Part shown: piece after piece, positions 3,858-17,586 of the stretch
Position numbering within the stretch: position 1 is the stretch's first letter
Layout of the letters: every line of letters begins with the position of its first letter
NCBI GenBank assembly: GCA_030037185.1
Contig: JASHRR010000649.1
Coordinates: 1 to 19,105, forward strand
Source of the DNA: Xanthobacteraceae bacterium
GTDB taxonomy: Bacteria; Pseudomonadota; Alphaproteobacteria; Rhizobiales; Xanthobacteraceae
Length of the DNA stretch: 19,105 nucleotides
Direction: 5' to 3'
Notes under the pieces: generated by a model
Databases searched by the model: none
Seen by the model: only the letters and a program-made list of their open reading frames with translations
Told to the model about the DNA's origin: nothing
Position numbers and translations under genes: made by a program

Positions 3858-6800
3858 ATGGATATGATTCTCGTCAAGATTTTAGCTGCGTTCCTTACGC
3901 TCAGCGTGGTGACGACGCGCCCCGATGCCATCAAGACGCAGTTCGATCCGCAGCGCGACCAGGCCGAGGTCACTCAGGTATTGCGTGATGGCTGCGCCCA
4001 TATGCGCAAAGCGTTCGATGTTGAGTCCCTTGACATCGACGACCTCATCAAGACCGCCATGGATGATCCGCAAGCGCTCTCGAGCGACGTCAAGGTGCTT
4101 CATGGGCTGAAGTTCGATACCCTGCTTGCGGTCTACAGTCAATTCTGCAAGGGCGAAGACAAGGCTTCGGTGGACCTTGGCGAGGTGATCCGATTCTATA
4201 ACGGCGCCCTCGCTGACCTTCCCGATTACACCCGTCTCAAGGGCGCCCGCATGGCCATATCGGGCGGGATTCTCGACGGCAAAGGGGAACGCTTCGCCGA
4301 TCTCACCGAGAGCAACCGACGCATCTGGGTGCCGCTGCGGGACATTCCCCTTCATGTCCAGAAGGCCTTCATCGCCGCCGAGGACAGGCGCTTTTACGAA
4401 CATCATGGAGTCGACGAGCGCGCTCTCATCCGCGCCATGGTGTCGAACCTTGCCAGCCCCGGCCGGCCGCAAGGCGGTTCGACCATCACCCAGCAGGTTG
4501 TCAAGAACCTGCTGGTCGGCGATGACGTCACCTACGAACGCAAGATGCGTGAGATCATCCTGGCTTCCCGGCTGGAGCACAGTCTCACCAAAGCGGAAAT
4601 CCTGGAACTCTATCTCAACTCGATCTACCTCGGCCGCGGTGCGTGGGGAATCGAGCTGGCGGCGCGCAATTACTTCGGCAAGCCGGCCTCCGCATTGACG
4701 CTGGAGGAAGGCGCAATGCTGGCCGGGCTGCCCAAAGGGCCGACTTATTACAGTCCGGATCGCCGTCCCGATCGAGCGCAGGAGCGGCTCGCCTATGTGG
4801 TGAGCCGGATGCAGGAAGACGGCGTGGCGGGTGCCGCGGCGATCGACAGCAGCAAGCTCGCGTTACCCCACATGGTGGCCTACACCCAGACCCAGCAGCG
4901 CGATTCGGGCTACTACTTCCTCGACCATGTGACGCGCGAGGCGCGATCGCTTGCCGGATTGGCGACCCTGACGGCTGCCGGCACGACGGTACACACCACG
5001 GTTCGTCCGGAGCTCCAGCGCGCCACCGAGGCTGCGCTGCAGGAGGGCTTGGCGCAGTACGAGATTCGCACCGGCCGCACGGAATGGCACGGCGCGGAGG
5101 CAAATCTCGCTGAGGCGGTGCGACGCATCGAGGCGTCCCGGCCGGCGGCGGTTGCCGAGATGACGGCGGTATCTGATGTCAAGCCTCCCGGCCGCGGCTC
5201 CGCCCGCACGGCCGACGGCGGCGCCAAACCGTCACGCGGCGGCACTGCCGGAAGGCTCGCGCCAGGTCCCGGCTCAGCAGGTCCCGGCTCAGCAGGTCCC
5301 GGTTTAGCAGGTCCCGGTTTAGCAGGTCCCGGCTCAGCAGGTGCCGGCTCGGCAAGTCGCGGCTCGGCGGGCGCGGGGTCAACGAGCGCGAAAGCCTCGC
5401 CTTCTGCGCCCGATGTCGTCGGCCCCGTGCCGCTCGCTCCGGCGGCGGCTCCCGTCGTCAAGCCGAAGCCGGCTTGGCAGCAGGCGCTCGAGGCGGCGCA
5501 TTTGCCGCTCTACGACGTCCACTGGTCGAGCGCAATCGTGCTGCCGACGAGTGATCGCGCCGGCCTACGGGTTGGACTATCCGACGGTCGCATCATGCCG
5601 CTGTCCTCAGCCGGTCTCGCCGGCCGGCGCGGTCTCAACCCTTATGACGTGGTGTTCGTCAAGGTCAGCGACACCAGAGGCAAGCAGACCCGGGCCGAGC
5701 TGCGCGTGCGCCCGACCGTCGAGGGCGCCGCGGTGATCCTCGACAACAAGACCGGCGCCATTCTCGCCATGGCGGGCGGCTTCTCTTATCCGTTGAGCCA
5801 GCTCAACCGCGTGACCCAGGCGGTGCGCCAGCCGGGCTCCTCGCTCAAGCCGTTCACCTATCTGGCGGCGCTGCAACGGGGCCTGCAGCCCAATACGCTG
5901 GTGAGAGACCAAGCTGTGACCCTGCCGCCGATGGGCGATTCGTCCCGTGCGCGGGAGAAGGACTACTGGTCGCCCAAGAACGCCGACGGCGGCGGCGGCG
6001 GCATCACGACGTTGCGACGCGGACTGGAAAATTCCAAGAACCTTGTCACCGCCAATCTGCTCGACGGCGGCATCGACTCCGATCCGAGCCAAAGTCTCCG
6101 ACGGGTCTGCGAACTGACTATCGACGCGCAGATCTACCACGATTGCGTGGCGTATTATCCGTTCGTTCTCGGCGCCCAGCCCGCCCGGCTGATCGACATG
6201 GCGGCATTTTATGCGGCAGTCGCCACCGAGGGCCGCCGCCCCTCGCCCTACGCCATCGAGTCGATTGAGCAGAACGGCCGCACCGTCTACACCCATACGC
6301 CCGATGCGAAATGGCTGGCCGGGGGCGACCGGCCGTCATTCTTTCAACTGCGCAGCATGTTGCAGGGGGTGGTGGCCCGCGGCACCGCGCGCGCGATCGG
6401 GCACTTGTCGTCCTACGTGGGCGGCAAAACCGGCACCAGCGATGACGGCAACGACGCGTGGTTCATTGGCTTTACCAACGACATGACGATTGGCGTGTGG
6501 GTCGGCTACGACAACGCCGACGGCAAGCGCCGCACGCTCGGCAATAACCAGACCGGCGGACGCGTAGCCGTGCCGATTTTCGCGCAGATCGTCGAAGCCG
6601 GCTGGGCGAGCTACGCCCGCAAGACGCCGCTCAATCCGCCGTCGCCCGAGGCAAGAAAAGAGCTTGTGGCGATGCAGATCGACCTTGAGAGCGGAACCCC
6701 GCTCCGTGATCGCGGACCTGGTCCGGAGGGCTTTACGGAATATTTCCGCGTGCGGCACGGGCAGGTCGAGGAAACCCGCTATGCGCTGGTGTCACCGGAC

Positions 6801-7091
6801 GAGGTCGCCGCCAATCGGTTCGGCGATGACGGTGAGGACGATCTGCGCTACCCGAACGCCGGCGGGCGGTACCCCGGGAGTCCCTATGGCGGCTATTATG
6901 CGCAACCGCAACGTCCCGGTGACCTTTTCCAGCTGTTCGGCAGTTTGTTCGGCCAGCCGCAGCGCCAAGCGCCGCCGAACGGCGGGTATGGCGATCTTCG
7001 TTCACGCAGCCCGGACGATCGGCGGTGGTTCCCACCACGCCAGGTCGACCCCGACGTGCCATGGCGCGACCGCCAGCGCAGCGATTATTGA
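3858..7091 (+). CDS. class A penicillin-binding protein (PBP1A-like)
   Basis: Bifunctional peptidoglycan glycosyltransferase/transpeptidase acting in the periplasm, anchored by the hydrophobic N terminus (MILVKILAAFLTLSVV). Residues 20-135 form an extension I do not recognise. The GT51 domain (about 150-330) shows FIAAEDRRFYEHHG with catalytic E175, then QGGSTITQQVVKNL. The penicillin-binding domain has SSLK (S661, K664), SKN (S726-N728) and KTG (857-859), so all three active-site motifs are intact. Between them is an OB-like segment (about 560-630) preceded by a Gly/Pro/Ala-rich linker with a 5-residue repeat at 470-504. The last 120 residues are Pro/Gly/Tyr/Gln-rich. At 1077 residues it is longer than usual for PBP1A (about 800-850). 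No clear ribosome-binding site precedes the ATG at 3858, and an ATG two codons later is also possible. Confidence 0.92.
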   Translation: MDMILVKILAAFLTLSVVTTRPDAIKTQFDPQRDQAEVTQVLRDGCAHMRKAFDVESLDIDDLIKTAMDDPQALSSDVKVLHGLKFDTLLAVYSQFCKGEDKASVDLGEVIRFYNGALADLPDYTRLKGARMAISGGILDGKGERFADLTESNRRIWVPLRDIPLHVQKAFIAAEDRRFYEHHGVDERALIRAMVSNLASPGRPQGGSTITQQVVKNLLVGDDVTYERKMREIILASRLEHSLTKAEILELYLNSIYLGRGAWGIELAARNYFGKPASALTLEEGAMLAGLPKGPTYYSPDRRPDRAQERLAYVVSRMQEDGVAGAAAIDSSKLALPHMVAYTQTQQRDSGYYFLDHVTREARSLAGLATLTAAGTTVHTTVRPELQRATEAALQEGLAQYEIRTGRTEWHGAEANLAEAVRRIEASRPAAVAEMTAVSDVKPPGRGSARTADGGAKPSRGGTAGRLAPGPGSAGPGSAGPGLAGPGLAGPGSAGAGSASRGSAGAGSTSAKASPSAPDVVGPVPLAPAAAPVVKPKPAWQQALEAAHLPLYDVHWSSAIVLPTSDRAGLRVGLSDGRIMPLSSAGLAGRRGLNPYDVVFVKVSDTRGKQTRAELRVRPTVEGAAVILDNKTGAILAMAGGFSYPLSQLNRVTQAVRQPGSSLKPFTYLAALQRGLQPNTLVRDQAVTLPPMGDSSRAREKDYWSPKNADGGGGGITTLRRGLENSKNLVTANLLDGGIDSDPSQSLRRVCELTIDAQIYHDCVAYYPFVLGAQPARLIDMAAFYAAVATEGRRPSPYAIESIEQNGRTVYTHTPDAKWLAGGDRPSFFQLRSMLQGVVARGTARAIGHLSSYVGGKTGTSDDGNDAWFIGFTNDMTIGVWVGYDNADGKRRTLGNNQTGGRVAVPIFAQIVEAGWASYARKTPLNPPSPEARKELVAMQIDLESGTPLRDRGPGPEGFTEYFRVRHGQVEETRYALVSPDEVAANRFGDDGEDDLRYPNAGGRYPGSPYGGYYAQPQRPGDLFQLFGSLFGQPQRQAPPNGGYGDLRSRSPDDRRWFPPRQVDPDVPWRDRQRSDY
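5265..5369 (+). repeat. 15-bp in-frame tandem repeat (seven units)
   Basis: Seven 15-base units with consensus GGTCCCGGCTCAGCA run head to tail. Units 1, 2 and 5 are identical, units 3 and 4 share a CTCA-to-TTTA change, and units 6 and 7 have diverged further. Each encodes Gly-Pro-Gly-Ser/Leu-Ala, giving residues 470-504 of the penicillin-binding protein. Because the unit is a multiple of three, gain or loss of copies would keep the frame. Confidence 0.95.
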
Positions 7092-11476: not shown

Positions 11477-11494
11477 TATCATGGCTCCATGATA
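11477..11494 (+). promoter_or_regulatory. inverted repeat over the start codon, with possible -10 box
   Basis: TATCATGG (11477-11484) and CCATGATA (11487-11494) are perfect inverted copies with two bases between. The ATG of the thioredoxin fusion (11489-11491) is inside the right arm. The left arm begins with TATCAT, a plausible -10 hexamer whose natural start point would be at or next to the ATG. No ribosome-binding site precedes the ATG, so a leaderless message is possible. The -35 region is weak. Confidence 0.35.
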
Positions 11495-12979
11495 CACGAC
11501 GGCGTTCCACAGATCGAAGCCAAGGACAACCCGGCATTCGCGGGCCCGACGTTCTTTGCCTTCATCAAGCAAGACTGTCCGACCTGTGTTCTGGCGATGC
11601 CGGCGCTGCGCGAGATCGACGAGCGCATCGCCCGCTCCGGCGGGACACTTAAAGTGCACGTGCAGGACGATGTGAGCTTCGCCAAAGGTTTTTCGCAGGC
11701 GAGCGACGATAGCGCACTCGCAGCCTCTTACCGCTACAACATCGATACGGTGCCGACCCTGCTCCGCCTCACGAGCGGCCGCGAGAACGCGCGCGTGGTC
11801 GGCTGGCGGCGCGCGGAATGGCAAGCCATCACCGGGCTTCCCGGGCTGGGCGAAGGCCTGCCGGAATATCGCCCGGGGTGCGGATCGAAAACCATCGACC
11901 CCGGCATGGCGGTGCGGCTCAAGGTGAAATACGGCGACACCGGCCTCGCATCGCGCCGCATTACAGTGCCGGCACTGTCCGATCCGGTCGAAACCTGCTA
12001 TGAGCGCGGCTGGACCGACGGCCTGCCGGTAGTGCCGCCCACCGAGGAACGCGTGCTCGAAATGCTTGACGGCATCCCGCGCGCACCGGGCGAGCTTATC
12101 GGCCTGATACCGCCCAACCTCGCTCCATGCACCGTGGAGAAGGTTGCCGTCAATGCTGTGATGGCGGGCTGCCGACCCGAATACATGCCTGTGGTGCTCA
12201 CCGCCGTCGAGGCGGCGCTGATGCCGGCCTTCGGGCTCCATGGGGTGCTTGCCACCACCAACGCCTGCACGCCGGTCGTCATGGTCAACGGGCCGATTGC
12301 GCGCGTCATCGGCATGAATGCGAAGGGCAATGTATTCGGCCAGGGCAACCGCGCTAACGCGGCGATCGGCCGTACGCTGCAGCTCATTGTACGCAATGTG
12401 GGCGGCGGGCGGCCGGGCGAGATCGATCGCTCGGTCTTCGGCAGTCCGGCGAAATACTCCTTCTGTTTCGCGGAAGACGAGGATGACCCCCGCTGGGACT
12501 CCTATGCTGTGTCGCTCGGGTATTCGCCGAATGCCTCAACCGTCACGATATTTCCAGGCGACGGTATCACCCAGATTATCGATCACATTTCGCGACGGCC
12601 GGAGGATTTGTGCCGCGCCTTTGCGGGCTGCATCCGGGCGATATATGGCACCGGCCATATCATCGGCGTGCAGGCTTTCCTGGCGATCGCACGGGAACAC
12701 GCAATCGTATTCTACGATGCCGGCTGGTCGAAAGCGCGCGTGAAGGAAGAGCTTCTCGGGCTGCTGAAAATTCCGGTGCGTGAGGTGGTGGCGGGCCGCG
12801 CCGGTTTGACGGGGCTGACGATCGAAGAAAGATCCAATCCGGACAACCTGGTCGCCAAATTCAAGAACGGCACCTTCAACATCATCCGGGCCGGTGGCTA
12901 CGCCGGCAAATATTCCGCCATCATCCCATCGATCGGCGGAAGAGGCAGTATCGAACCGGTAACCAGGGAGATCAGATAG
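11489..12979 (+). CDS. thioredoxin-fold fusion protein, partner of the UGSC selenoprotein
   Basis: The 496-residue protein has two parts. Residues 15-115 form a thioredoxin-like domain: FFAFIKQDCPTC with redox pair C30/C33 and the cis-proline loop DTVPT (P89). Residues 160-496 form a second domain opening with GWTDGLPVVPPTEERVLEML and containing NAVMAGCRPEYMPVV, VNGPIARVIGMNAKGN, GNRANAAIGRTLQL and GSPAKYSFCFAEDEDD. I recall this as a conserved family without an assigned reaction, found beside UGSC-type proteins; that recollection is not proof. No signal peptide is seen, so it is probably cytosolic. The stop is two bases before the ATG of the selenoprotein gene, implying translational coupling. 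The likely role, inferred, is to reduce or work with the selenocysteine centre of its neighbour. The ATG lacks a ribosome-binding site. Confidence 0.8.
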   Translation: MIHDGVPQIEAKDNPAFAGPTFFAFIKQDCPTCVLAMPALREIDERIARSGGTLKVHVQDDVSFAKGFSQASDDSALAASYRYNIDTVPTLLRLTSGRENARVVGWRRAEWQAITGLPGLGEGLPEYRPGCGSKTIDPGMAVRLKVKYGDTGLASRRITVPALSDPVETCYERGWTDGLPVVPPTEERVLEMLDGIPRAPGELIGLIPPNLAPCTVEKVAVNAVMAGCRPEYMPVVLTAVEAALMPAFGLHGVLATTNACTPVVMVNGPIARVIGMNAKGNVFGQGNRANAAIGRTLQLIVRNVGGGRPGEIDRSVFGSPAKYSFCFAEDEDDPRWDSYAVSLGYSPNASTVTIFPGDGITQIIDHISRRPEDLCRAFAGCIRAIYGTGHIIGVQAFLAIAREHAIVFYDAGWSKARVKEELLGLLKIPVREVVAGRAGLTGLTIEERSNPDNLVAKFKNGTFNIIRAGGYAGKYSAIIPSIGGRGSIEPVTREIR

Positions 12980-12981
12980 CG

Positions 12982-13503
12982 ATGCCGGAAAACATTCTCC
13001 TCGACCCGACGGCCGAGACGGCGCCGGCTAGACAGCCGCGCCTGGCGCGGCCGCCATCGATCGCCGGAATGACGATCGGACTCCTCGACATCGCCAAGAT
13101 GCGGAGTGACGAATTTCTCGATCGGCTCGACGAACTTCTGACGGAGCGCGGCCATGTGGTGAAGCGCTATCGCAAGAAACACTTCACGCACCTGGCGCCG
13201 CTTGAGCTGAAACAAAAGATCAAATCCGAATGCGACCTTGTCGTCGAAGGATTGGCTGATTGAGGCTCCTGCACGTCGTGCTGTATGCATGACCTCAGGG
13301 GCCTTGAGCAGCTGGGCACGGTGGCGGTCGGGGTTGCGACCACGGAATTCACGGTCGCGGCGGCGGCGCAGAGCCAGGCGCTGGGCTATGATCCGGCCGT
13401 GGTATTCGTTGCGCATCCGATCCAGGACCGCACACACGATGAAATCCGCGCCCTTGCGGAAGGTGCGCTGGGGGAGATCTTGGCTAATCTGGCGGACCGG
13501 TAG
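12982..13503 (+). CDS. UGSC-family selenoprotein (TGA 13261-13263 = Sec94)
   Basis: The frame opened at 12982 meets TGA at 13261-13263 and continues without another stop to TAG at 13501-13503. Read with selenocysteine, the product has 173 residues and the motif U94-G-S-C97-T-S-C100-C101, the signature of the UGSC (seleno)protein family, in which U or C occupies the first position. Sequence on both sides of the TGA looks like one protein: SECDLVVEGLAD before it, and HDLRGLEQLG and GVATTEFTVAAAAQ after it. A SECIS-like hairpin starts on the TGA, and selB is 1.7 kb away. No signal peptide is present. The ATG follows CAGGGAG at about 11 bases and nearly overlaps the upstream stop. The family's reaction is unknown to me; the UxxC pair suggests thiol/selenol redox chemistry. 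A standard gene caller would report 93 residues or split the gene in two. Confidence 0.93.
13261..13306 (+). promoter_or_regulatory. bacterial SECIS element
   Basis: An eleven-pair lower helix joins 13261-13271 to 13296-13306, with four G-U pairs and the UGA at its base. A small internal loop (13272-13274 and 13294-13295) follows. A seven-pair upper helix joins 13275-13281 to 13287-13293 and closes the five-base loop UGUAU (13282-13286). The loop begins 18 bases after the UGA and has a G in its first two positions, matching the published pattern for bacterial SECIS elements that bind SelB. The pairings were traced by hand. Confidence 0.85.
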
Positions 13504-13726: not shown

Positions 13727-14062
13727 TCACGGCGTCACGACAACCTTGCCCGTCATGTGTGGATGCAGGCCACAGAAATACTCATAGCTGCCGGCCTTAT
13801 CGAAGGTGAAGCTGAATTTATCTTCGGTGTCGAGGGCCGGTGAGTGGAACTTGCCGGTCGTTTCGACGATCGAATGGGCAATGTCGTCGTTGTTCTGCCA
13901 AACGATCTTGGTCCCGATTGGAACCGTGATGGCGTCGGGCTTGAAGGTGAAGTTGCCGATAGCGAGGTTGATTTCGCGGGGCTCCGCGAGTGCTGCGTAG
14001 ACGGCACAGCACACCGCCGCACCCGCCGAGAATGCGCGCAGACTGTCGTGGATGAGAGACAT
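13727..14062 (-). CDS. small periplasmic cupredoxin (amicyanin/pseudoazurin-like)
   Basis: A 111-residue blue-copper protein for periplasmic electron transfer. Residues 1-26 are a Sec signal peptide (likely cut after ALA, before EPREIN). The mature part is a single beta-barrel. The type 1 copper ligands are all visible: H63 in DDIAHSIVE, and C97, H100 and M103 in YFCGLHPHMTGKV, with amicyanin-like C-x2-H-x2-M spacing. The ATG at 14062 follows AAAAAAGGCA at about 8 bases and gives a proper signal peptide; the ORF extends upstream to 14113 but the extra residues are charged. It lies downstream of the phosphoesterase gene on the same strand with a gap of 153 bases, so they may be co-transcribed. 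The redox partner is unknown. Confidence 0.88.
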   Translation of the reverse strand: MSLIHDSLRAFSAGAAVCCAVYAALAEPREINLAIGNFTFKPDAITVPIGTKIVWQNNDDIAHSIVETTGKFHSPALDTEDKFSFTFDKAGSYEYFCGLHPHMTGKVVVTP

Positions 14063-14215
14063 TTTGTGTGCCTTTTTTGTTGCGTCATGCCATCCCGCGG
14101 CGCGATCGCGCACGTGTAGCGAGACACCGGCTTTTGCTCAGCCACCACGGAGCGTGGTTGGCCGGGCGCGGCGATGACGGGCTGTTTCGACGTGACCGAG
14201 CCGCGAACCGGAGGT

Positions 14216-15166
14216 TCACGCCTTGACGAGTTCGCTGTCGGTGATGGCAAGGGGCTGGGTGCCTCGTTTCACCTCGACTGTGGTGATGCCGAGGACCGTG
14301 CGCAGCTTGTCATCAGGCACGCGCATGGGGCCGGGCGCCGGCGCAGTGCCGGGCGCCGGTTGCGGGAAAGCTGTCGAGCGCGCGGTATGGAAGGTTACGG
14401 CGCCTTCGACCTTCTGCATGATCTGATGGATATGGCCGTTGAGCACCGTCACTGAGCCGAACCGCCTGACGAACCCTAGCGCCTGCGCTGCATCATCGGT
14501 TCCCCAGCCCCAGTTCTCAGCGACGGTCCACAGCGGGATATGGGCAAACAGTACGATCGGGGTGGAGGCTGGTTTGCTCTTCAGATCGTCCGAAAGCCAC
14601 GCAAGCTGCTCGGCGCCAAGCGTTCCCATGCCGCCCGCCTTGAGGTTCGCGACATTGACCAGGCCAACGAAATGCACGCCGTTGGTGTCGAACGAATACC
14701 AGCCGCTGCCCTTGGCCCGGACCCGCTTGCCGTAGCGCTCCAGGTAGGCCTTGCCGAGGTCGGCATCGATGATGTCATGTTCGCCCGGAACGTAGAAGGT
14801 ATCGAGCCGCGCCTTACCGATCGCCTGATCGGCGTTGTCGAATTCCTCAGGCCTGGACAAATGGGTGATGTCGCCGGTGTGCAGCATCAGGGCGGGCTTC
14901 TGCGGCAACCCGCCGATCTTGGCAATGGCCTCCTCGAGCGTCGCCATCGGATTGGGGTTGGCGGGCGCTTTGAAGCCGATGTGACTGTCGGAAATCTGCA
15001 GGAACGCGAAACCGCTCGCGGCCTGCGCCCTGGCTTCGGAGATTGCGAGCAACGACGATGACCGCGGCACGCCGCCTACCATTGTCCACAGCACGCCGGT
15101 GCCGGCCCACATCATGCAGTTCAATGCGCCGCGCCGGTCAATCCCGTCCCGATCGTTGTGTTCCAT
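14216..15166 (-). CDS. Tat-exported calcineurin-like metallophosphoesterase
   Basis: A 316-residue two-metal phosphohydrolase. DRRGALNCMMWAG at residues 10-22, followed by a hydrophobic stretch and ARAQA, looks like a twin-arginine signal, so the enzyme would fold with its metals before export. Metal-site motifs appear in order: ISDSHIG (D60, H62), LHTGDITH (D99), VPGEHD (129-131), LFAHIPLW and LNGHIHQ. The third motif is normally GNHD/E; here Glu replaces the metal-binding Asn. A Pro/Ala-rich loop (PQPAPGTAPAPGP) lies near the C terminus. The ATG at 15166 is preceded by AGGGAGA at good spacing. The substrate is unknown. Its partner downstream is the cupredoxin, and both products are predicted periplasmic, so a joint envelope role is possible. 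Confidence 0.87.
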   Translation of the reverse strand: MEHNDRDGIDRRGALNCMMWAGTGVLWTMVGGVPRSSSLLAISEARAQAASGFAFLQISDSHIGFKAPANPNPMATLEEAIAKIGGLPQKPALMLHTGDITHLSRPEEFDNADQAIGKARLDTFYVPGEHDIIDADLGKAYLERYGKRVRAKGSGWYSFDTNGVHFVGLVNVANLKAGGMGTLGAEQLAWLSDDLKSKPASTPIVLFAHIPLWTVAENWGWGTDDAAQALGFVRRFGSVTVLNGHIHQIMQKVEGAVTFHTARSTAFPQPAPGTAPAPGPMRVPDDKLRTVLGITTVEVKRGTQPLAITDSELVKA

Positions 15167-15248
15167 AATGTGCTCTCCCTCGCGGCCGATAACGGCCGAC
15201 TGCCGGAGAGACGGCGGAGGGGGAGCGTTTATTCCGGGTCATTTCAGG

Positions 15249-15290
15249 CCACGTATCACGTGGTCGTGAATGCGGCAGAAACCCGCATTC
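15249..15290. other. two adjacent hairpins between phosphoesterase and pseudogene
   Basis: CCACGT/ACGTGG (15249-15254 with 15258-15263) is followed by GAATGCGG/CCGCATTC (15268-15275 with 15283-15290, loop CAGAAAC). They lie downstream of the stop of the minus-strand amidohydrolase pseudogene, so they may be its old transcription end. No T-tract follows. Confidence 0.35.
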
Positions 15291-15339
15291 TGCTGGTCAG
15301 TCAGGTCTGATCCGACACATCTCTCGGTTGCTTCGCAAG

Positions 15340-16321
15340 CTACCCTTTAATGCCCAACAGGCGCAAAGGGTCGTGGTGGCGAAGATGTGATCCACCGGAT
15401 GTTGCTCCCACACGAACGGGTGGTCGCTGCCGAGCATGACCTGGCTCGCACCGACCTGCGCCACCAGATGGCGCAGCGCCTCCGGCGTGAACACCAGAAA
15501 TAAAGCGCCTTGAGCAGATGGACGCCATGGCAATCGACATGGAAGTGCTCTCCATCAATCCGTTCTGGTACCGCAAGGACCGCGACAAGCGGCCGCAATC
15601 GTCAAGCTGCAGAATCTTGCGGCGCTGTGCGCGTTGCCACCGGAACGCTTCGTCGGGCCTTTGCGTCGCTGTGCCCTGCAATTCCCCGACCTGGCGGTGA
15701 AACAACTCGAAGACGCCGTGAAGAGGCTGGGGCTGCGGGGCGCCCAGATCGGCGGCAGCGTCGACGGCGAAGATTTTTCCGACCGCAAATTTCATCCGGT
15801 CTGGGCGAAGGCTGAAGAGCTTGGCGCAGTGCTATTTATTCACCCGCAGAACACCCGGAGCTTGCCAGCCGCTTTAAGCGCAATGGCCTCAGCTTGAGGT
15901 CCGGATTGCAGGCGCCGGGCGGCGCGACGAAGCAGGCATGGTCGGAGCGCCGTCAAGCTGATGGGTGATGACGCCCGCAACGTGTTCGTGCCCGTCAAAG
16001 GCGCGGAAAATCAATACATCGTCATCGCGGAGCGGACCAGAAATAAAGCTGACGCAAATATTCCCTGCTTTGGCTGTCGAACACGATTGGCAACCCGCTC
16101 GATACCACCGTCGCGCTTCAGCATCTGATCTTTGAAGGCACGCTTGACCGTGAAACAGGCAGTGCGCGTGCACATCGATCGTCCTGACGCGCTGGCCCTT
16201 GACGATGACGGGCAGGCGCCGCGCGGGCTGTGTGCCCGGGCAGCCCTCCAGCATCCCGCAGCGGCAGAAGGCGATTGCGGCCATCGCCGCCCCTTTCAGG
16301 AAAGCTTCTGCGTGTCGTCAT
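15340..16321 (-). pseudogene. scrambled amidohydrolase pseudogene
   Basis: Seven recognisable pieces of one Tat-exported amidohydrolase-2 protein are out of order and alternate in strand. From right to left: A (minus, 16321-16150) TTRRSFLKG signal with a 1-base insertion, then RTIDVHAHCLFH; D (plus, about 16071-16149) WLSNTIGNPLDTTVALQHL; G (minus, about 16062-16038) EYLRQLYF; B (plus, about 15955-16035) LMGDDARNVFVPVKG to YIVIAER; F (minus, about 15947-15887) RSDHACFVAPPGACNPDLKL; C (plus, about 15507-15886) MDAMAIDMEVLSINPFWYRK through GLRGAQIGGSVDGEDFSD to HPQNT; E (minus, about 15500-15340) FTPEALRHLVAQVGASQVML through DHPFVWEQHPVDHIFATT, then a frame-shifting deletion before LLGIKG and TAG. 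In the family the order is A-B-C-D-F-G-E. Small indels also break piece C. The end pieces indicate an original minus-strand gene. It cannot make a functional enzyme. Confidence 0.88.
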
Positions 16322-16545
16322 GCCTCTCCTCCCGCAATTTTTACTTGCATTATTTTACCTTGCTGCGGGCGCGGCGGATTGTTCGCCCATCCACGCCAAT
16401 GATCAAGCAGCATCCGCCTTACGCCGGCGCCCCCTTCACTACCGCTGGGGGACAAGGGGTGTCGCAGCCTCCCCGAGATGACACCGGTTGCCGTCGCGCT
16501 TCATCGGCATTAACAATCAATCAAAGAAACACCAAGGAGACGTCC

Positions 16546-17586
16546 ATGACGGCTTTCCCTCGGCAGAGCCTCCTCGCAGCAGCGGTGCTTGCCTCGGCCA
16601 CGGCAATTTGCTTCGCCTTGCCGGCCGCAGGCCAGACAGTTGAGAATTTCTACAAGAGCCACGAGCTGACCATCCTGATCGGCCATCCGCCGGGCGGCTC
16701 TTACGATCTCTACGCACAACTCGCTGCCGCCCACATCGGCAAATACATTCCCGGTAAGCCGACGGTGATCGTCCAGAGCATGCCGGGAGGAGCCGGCTCC
16801 AAGGCAGCGTCCTATCTTTATGCCAAGGGTCCCAAGGACGGCTCGATGATCTCGCTGTTTCCCGAGACCATTGCGTATGTGCAGCTGATGGATCCGGCGC
16901 AAGGGCGCTGGGACGTCACCAAGATGAGCTATATCGGCTCATTCGCGCCGGTGAACACCGCCTTCATGGTGCACAAGGGCTCCAAGCTTGCTTCCGCGGA
17001 GGACCTGTTCAGGGGTAAGACCAATGTCGGCTGCAGCGGTCACGCGTCGCAGAGCTTTCAGTATCCCGCAACCCTCAAAGTCCTCGCCAAGATGCCGCTC
17101 AACATCATCTGTGGCTATGACGGCTCGTCCGCCTACACGCTTGCCCTGCTGCGCGGCGAAGTCGATCTCGTTTCGAAAGCCTGGAATTCCTGGCGGGCCG
17201 AGGACAAGGACAACATCGACAACGGCACCTTTATCCCGCTGCTGCAGGCCGGCCTCAAGCGCACGCCAGAATTGCCGAACGTGCCGCTGATGCAGGAGAT
17301 CGTGCCGGACCCCACCTCCAAAACCGCGCTCGAATTCATCTCGGCCGGCGCCGCCATCGGACGGGCGCTGTTGGCCCCGCAGAACGTTCCGGCCGACCGG
17401 CTGGCGGCGCTGCGCGCGGCCTTCGACAAGGTGGTGGTCGACAAGGATTTCCTCGCCGAAGCACAAAAGCGCAGCATCTACATCGAGCCGACGCCGGGCG
17501 CAGAGGTGCAGAAATACAGCGACGCCATCGTCAAGACCCCGAAAAATATCGTCGATCTCGTCGCCAAGGCATTCGACGCATCGTGA
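16546..17586 (+). CDS. TctC/Bug-family periplasmic solute receptor
   Basis: Extracytoplasmic substrate-binding protein of the tripartite tricarboxylate transporter type, binding small carboxylates for uptake. The 346 residues begin with a Sec signal (QSLLAAAVLASATAICFALP, likely cut near AAG-Q). The family features follow: ELTILIGHPPGGSYDLYAQL with the ligand-loop glycines, then IPGKPTVIVQSMPGGAGSKA, and late LLAPQNVPADRLAALRAAFD. The ATG at 16546 is preceded by AAGGAGA (16533-16539) at ideal spacing. The same frame is open back to 16132, but that part crosses the pseudogene and is not coding. No TctA or TctB membrane gene is seen, so the receptor may use a transporter encoded elsewhere, as many such orphans do. 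It stands just before the thiamine-diphosphate enzyme, suggesting linked uptake and catabolism. Confidence 0.92.
   Translation: MTAFPRQSLLAAAVLASATAICFALPAAGQTVENFYKSHELTILIGHPPGGSYDLYAQLAAAHIGKYIPGKPTVIVQSMPGGAGSKAASYLYAKGPKDGSMISLFPETIAYVQLMDPAQGRWDVTKMSYIGSFAPVNTAFMVHKGSKLASAEDLFRGKTNVGCSGHASQSFQYPATLKVLAKMPLNIICGYDGSSAYTLALLRGEVDLVSKAWNSWRAEDKDNIDNGTFIPLLQAGLKRTPELPNVPLMQEIVPDPTSKTALEFISAGAAIGRALLAPQNVPADRLAALRAAFDKVVVDKDFLAEAQKRSIYIEPTPGAEVQKYSDAIVKTPKNIVDLVAKAFDAS

Follow-up and report, generated by a model that had tools for sequence, protein, structure and literature searches.

The stretch of DNA analysed here (the window, 19,105 nucleotides in full) contains an open frame that is interrupted by a single TGA and then continues, which raises the question whether this TGA ends a protein or is read as selenocysteine (Sec), and what kind of protein results in the latter case. 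The frame extends from an ATG at 12982 to a TAG stop at 13501-13503 and comprises 93 residues, Sec and a further 79 residues. The original prediction of one frame broken only by TGA at codon 94 and followed at once by Gly-Ser-Cys, whose fragments of 93 and 79 codons join into a protein of 173 residues, was confirmed by re-reading the frame, and its coordinates are exact.

12982..13503, + strand: UGSC selenoprotein gene, 173 residues with predicted Sec94, motif DUGSCTSC (UxxCxxC)
13261..13263, + strand: TGA codon 94, predicted to be read as selenocysteine; nearly all homologues have TGA or Cys at the site
13261..13305, + strand: SECIS-like element with a partly conserved lower stem; the upper stem (7 bp) pairs 13275-13281 with 13287-13293 around the loop UGUAU (13282-13286)

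Stop codon or selenocysteine

Taken by itself the open continuation of the UGSC frame is weak evidence, because the window has 66 open frames longer than 90 codons that end in TGA, and 15 of them, the UGSC frame included, continue for at least 79 codons; a true stop, followed by a frame that is open by chance or is a decayed remnant, would not look unusual in this respect. However, the related loci speak against such a stop. A search of genome contigs, whose query had Cys at the Sec site and which therefore did not disfavour Cys forms, confirmed 168 relatives, the best 80 of which were kept for counts. In all 80 the codon at the Sec site is TGA and a conserved protein runs on past it, so that two observations named beforehand as weighing against the original prediction, homologues that all end at the TGA and a lack of conservation beyond it, were not borne out. 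Both before and after the TGA the loci differ most often at third codon positions: over 60 codons, mismatches at the first, second and third positions number 1471/1121/2666 upstream of the TGA and 1024/1064/2211 downstream. Likewise, when the window is compared with L001, its closest relative at 91% identity, 24 of the 32 changed codons before the TGA and 15 of the 21 after it are synonymous.

Cys homologues are a further argument against a true stop. A single-sequence search gave 63 matches, 13 of which reach 165 aa or more and contain xGSCTSC, the Sec site being occupied by Cys in 11, by W in one and by R in one, and among 107 further matches of a profile search (among the 120 listed of 930) the site is Cys in 106 and W in one. 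Homologues of the joined product with Sec or Cys at this site that align on both sides, for which the original prediction had proposed to search, thus exist. The entries with W (P0002, P0185) or R (P0005) all lie on contigs of about 1 kb, and these residues could be a gene-caller translation of TGA or real replacements. The remaining single-sequence matches are mostly short: 47 of the 63 fall below 150 residues, and in 41 of the 47 the last residue is the Asp that directly precedes the TGA. This bears out the earlier claim that standard annotation truncates the gene. UGSC shows how annotation loses selenoprotein genes.

The constraints given for bSECIS elements (PMC13188914; this and the other papers are cited from their accessible parts) are a loop of 3-9 nt, an upper stem of 4-16 bp, a G at loop position 1 or 2 and a spacing of 16-37 nt, and the window hairpin agrees with them (7-bp stem, UGUAU with G second, 19 nt from UGA to G). 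Compared with resampled synonymous codons, the fold of the 45 bases from the TGA scores z -2.44 in the window and below -1 in 80 of 81 sequences across the loci (mean -2.33). Alignment of 58 of the 81 stretches, near-duplicates having been removed by eye, shows no variation in the loop or in most of the upper stem. In a 13-pair structure, which was derived from those same folds so that the counts lean towards them, 91.1% of cells are paired against 88.6 in shuffles, 27 cells are changed on both sides against 10.9, and covariation is 0.104 against 0.075 (for both of the latter, none of 500 shuffles is as high). The number of pairs with double changes and the number of pair types are not above shuffles (203 and 243 of 500), and slid registers are lower in paired cells, both-side changes and covariation.

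The UGSC frame stands above chance because of the TGA in all 80 loci, the third-position bias on both sides and the SECIS-like hairpin. On comparative grounds it is nearly certain that 12982-13503 is one selenoprotein gene in which the TGA at 13261 is recoded to Sec94 by the SECIS hairpin and SelB, and a true stop, against which the hairpin also argues, is extremely improbable and already contradicted by the homologues.

Family membership and selenocysteine machinery

Against NF041046, 'UGSC family (seleno)protein', the joined product scores 129.4 bits (cut-off 125, residues 29-170), and against PF24696 133.2 bits (cut-off 25, residues 6-170). The earlier suggestion that UGSC/CGSC marks a known (seleno)protein family agrees with these two matches, both above cut-off, by which the selenoprotein itself is not new and belongs to the named family NF041046/PF24696. 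Its distribution is patchy, with 5 of 398 sampled proteobacterial genomes carrying it, among them that of the closest relative (G001), and UGSC is stated to make up 8.2% of selenoprotein genes (PMC9402790). Functions are described as largely uncharacterized for the group of families that includes UGSC in the accessible text of a 2026 review (PMC13188914).

9399..11294, - strand: selB, Sec-specific elongation factor, 631 aa; TIGR00475 400 bits, cut-off 242.25

The presence of selB in the same locus, as claimed originally, is upheld by this match. In G001 selA, selB, selC and selD are all over cut-off, and in 10 of 12 UGSC genomes tested (G001-G008, G147, G319) UGSC with TGA is accompanied by selA, selB and selD over cut-off; in G319 the match to selB is partial and barely over it (249.1 against 242.25). 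The gene selC was found in all eight of G001-G008, with best matches of 66.2-83.2 bits against 47, by a model that also exceeds its cut-off in 5 of the 14 control genomes. In G151, whose form is CGSC, selA, selB and selD are all absent over cut-off; G285 is an exception, with UGSC containing TGA in two pieces, selD present, and selA and selB not over cut-off. Among the best 80 loci selA is present in 50, selB in 51 and both in 46. UGSC, selA, selB and selC are clustered in G004-G008 (5 of 8 genomes tested), so that in these organisms the UGSC system may be a main reason for keeping selenocysteine.

A fixed partner, TrxX

11489..12979, + strand: TrxX, thioredoxin domain and core domain; ends 2 nt before the UGSC start
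11576-11587, + strand: CPTC (codons 30-33) of the N-terminal thioredoxin domain of TrxX
11864-12976, + strand: TrxX core domain, residues ~126-496, of unknown family

TrxX sits directly upstream of UGSC in all of the best 80 of 168 loci, and the two genes overlap by four bases in 73 of 81. TrxX also adjoins the CGSC form (L116) and divergent systems. Among the neighbour clusters common to many of the 80 loci, which are partly annotated, only trxX, selA and selB stand out. The core domain (~370 residues) has no match in Pfam, NCBIfam or PDB, and its homologues number in the thousands (at least 8000). For the TrxX alignment 31 of 43 non-redundant sequences were used; L007 (parts in different frames), L021 (contains N), L061 (cut by the contig end) and L009 were left out.

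The two components also occur in one chain: L089 (1195-3117, + strand), L090 (- strand) and, putatively, L123 (G003:C31) are single-frame fusions of a divergent UGSC domain (USTC, with in-frame TGA) with the TrxX core domain, and a hairpin with a GGUC loop lies 3' of the TGA in L089 and L090. A TrxR-like gene occurs in 4 of 9 wide loci, and in L118, L121 and L122 it closely precedes, in the same orientation, systems without a Trx domain; none was found in the best 80 loci or the window. The UGSC/TrxX system is patchy but broad in proteobacteria, with Noviherbaspirillum and Halopseudomonas, such as the marine isolate Halopseudomonas pachastrellae, among the cultured carriers.

Fold and likeness to GrdB and PrdB

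The AF2 model of UGSC (pLDDT 93.4) consists of five beta-alpha units, a (beta-alpha)5 arrangement, and the matches listed by fold searches are flavodoxin-, receiver- and corrinoid-domain-like. No thioredoxin chain occurs among the 50 matches listed by each of two such searches, which is not an exclusion. The UGSC set (A4) of 70 sequences was hand-picked from the single-sequence, related-locus and profile searches, and Cys97 and Cys100 are invariant in the UGSC alignment. At E <= 1 its members match TIGR01917 (57), NF040794 (56), TIGR01918 (41), NF040795 (40) and TIGR04483 (3); the best E to this GrdB/PrdB group is 3.7e-5 (NF040794), and no unrelated family matches more than five members. The window protein itself matches GrdF NF040794 with E 0.15 (10.6 bits against a cut-off of 800) and does not match TIGR01917, TIGR01918 or TIGR04483 at E <= 1, and the best UGSC relatives reach about 20 bits against 602.2, the cut-off never being reached. 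Because the similarity of the window protein is this weak and the cut-offs are not reached, UGSC is taken as a probable distant relative of GrdB/PrdB and not as a member.

The match lies within positions 324-430 of GrdB, at about 327-428, and the Sec position counts to GrdB column 346 (from P0251). The UxxCxxC motif, which is given for GrdB (PMC13188914), is present in UGSC with Sec in the GrdB-aligned column. Natural PrdB-like proteins with Sec have their TGA at column 346 (L115) or 344 (L108, without gap correction); both are PrdB/GrdB-like sequences with an in-frame TGA (UPVC) from G147, a proteobacterium that also has two UGSC copies. An hhalign alignment of the UGSC profile to that of ten Cys PrdB-like proteins placed Cys on Cys (P 0.0021, probability 13%), with a score of 29.4 against 15.5 for the reversed profile and 25.8 for the highest of 200 column shuffles. 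These proteins represent 10 of 17 loci, after removal of L101 and L106 (wrong frame chosen), of L108 and L115 (TGA inside) and of L103, L105 and L112 (redundant), and the GrdB/PrdB cut-offs are passed by the proteobacterial PrdB-like proteins used in none of 398 genomes. Neither TrxX nor its core domain has an NCBIfam match to a GrdE/PrdA-like pyruvoyl partner.

Proposed function and its alternatives

GrdB/PrdB-type enzymes carry out the reductive deamination of glycine and the ring cleavage of D-proline, and glycine reductase is fed by thioredoxin (PMC13188914). The reading that we favour, at about even chances, is that UGSC is a stand-alone relative of the GrdB/PrdB Sec domain, working in a complex with TrxX by a reductive-cleavage mechanism. 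The active site would be formed jointly by UGSC and the TrxX core domain, which would supply part of the pocket, with Sec94 placed where the helix that follows strand three of a parallel sheet begins. In a small substrate Sec94 would attack an electrophilic atom, so that a bond of the C-N, C-S or C-halogen type is reductively cleaved, and Cys97, or possibly Cys100, would resolve the intermediate, which leaves a selenenylsulfide between Sec94 and Cys97. Re-reduction of this selenenylsulfide would then fall to the CPTC thioredoxin domain of TrxX, itself supplied by a thioredoxin reductase. Asp36, Lys39, Arg41, Lys65, His103, Asp104 and His145, which are conserved in UGSC, would suit an enzyme pocket for a small, perhaps anionic substrate.

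The UxxC motif, the thioredoxin domain of TrxX and the grouping of UGSC with Trx-like redox proteins in the accessible literature would suit a genuine selenoprotein that acts with TrxX as a generic thiol-disulfide or peroxide reductase, in which Sec-x-x-Cys exchanges disulfides or reduces peroxides. We consider this rather unlikely, given the predicted (beta-alpha)5 order, the similarity to GrdB, the conservation of charged residues outside UxxC, the constant association with a large additional domain and, short of an exclusion, the lack of thioredoxin chains among the listed fold matches. Sec94, Cys97 and Cys100 might instead bind or detoxify metals, metalloids or electrophiles with no bond cleavage: three chalcogen residues, two of them invariant, lie close together, and metal ligation has been proposed for some other selenoproteins (PMC13188914). 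However, no recurrent metal-resistance neighbour occurs in the 80 loci, with the clusters partly annotated, and the thioredoxin coupling suggests turnover, which makes such a role improbable.

Returning to reductive cleavage, it is conceivable, at somewhat less than even chances, that UGSC and TrxX each contribute one half of a thioredoxin-driven selenoenzyme of an undescribed class, in which a minimal GrdB/PrdB-type Sec domain is linked, either through an operon or within a single chain, to an undescribed catalytic domain. Divergent UGSC/TrxX paralogues may be substrate-specific, by analogy with the glycine, betaine and sarcosine reductases. If this is true, selenium-based reductive carbon-heteroatom cleavage extends beyond amino-acid-fermenting anaerobes.

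Other features of the window

Positions 13727-17586 hold cupredoxin, metallophosphoesterase and solute-receptor genes, which lie near UGSC in L001 too and are unmatched in the other 79 loci. Within 15297-16284 (- strand) pieces lie in different frames, perhaps of a broken gene copy, which we presume, from motifs judged by eye, to be amidohydrolase-like. An EpmA-like lysine ligase is located at 1-1948 beside a KamA-like radical SAM protein (TIGR03822 over cut-off; the EpmB model not reached), and 3858-7091 encodes a large product that, judged by eye, resembles a penicillin-binding protein and contains a Gly-Pro-Gly-Ser-Ala stretch of low complexity.

Comparison with known systems

Neither a tie of UGSC to GrdB/PrdB nor a fixed partner appears in the titles and visible abstracts found, most subscription papers lying outside the search, and the TrxX partner, the fusions and the GrdB link are absent from the accessible parts of PMC2398784, PMC13188914, PMC9312934, PMC10838667, PMC1088965, PMC7539508, PMC5029168 and PMC9402790. 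With the UGSC family (NF041046/PF24696) the window protein shares the motif, the full length and Sec or Cys at the same site, and as a member only the window copy is new. What is added beyond the known family is the TrxX partner, the Sec-containing UGSC-core fusions, the GrdB/PrdB similarity and the (beta-alpha)5 prediction. Through the fixed partner, the Sec fusions and the placement near GrdB/PrdB, what was an unexplained redox protein becomes the subject of a testable hypothesis on an enzyme.

A thioredoxin-like fold was proposed for UGSC in 2008, as far as the accessible part of that work goes; in its predicted (beta-alpha)5 arrangement UGSC differs from thioredoxin. With GrdB (glycine/sarcosine/betaine reductase protein B) and PrdB (D-proline reductase) it shares UxxCxxC and the Sec at profile column 346. 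However, GrdB/PrdB have 431-435 residues and UGSC 173, and, unlike them, UGSC is proteobacterial, with some hosts being cultured non-fermenters, and a pyruvoyl subunit was not detected. FarB, a GrdB-like protein, is a further case by description, as a GrdB-type Sec domain for which action on the C-F bond of fluoroacetate (fluoroacetate reduction) has been proposed (PMC10838667); it differs from UGSC in being a GrdB relative with a GrdE-like partner, from Synergistota.
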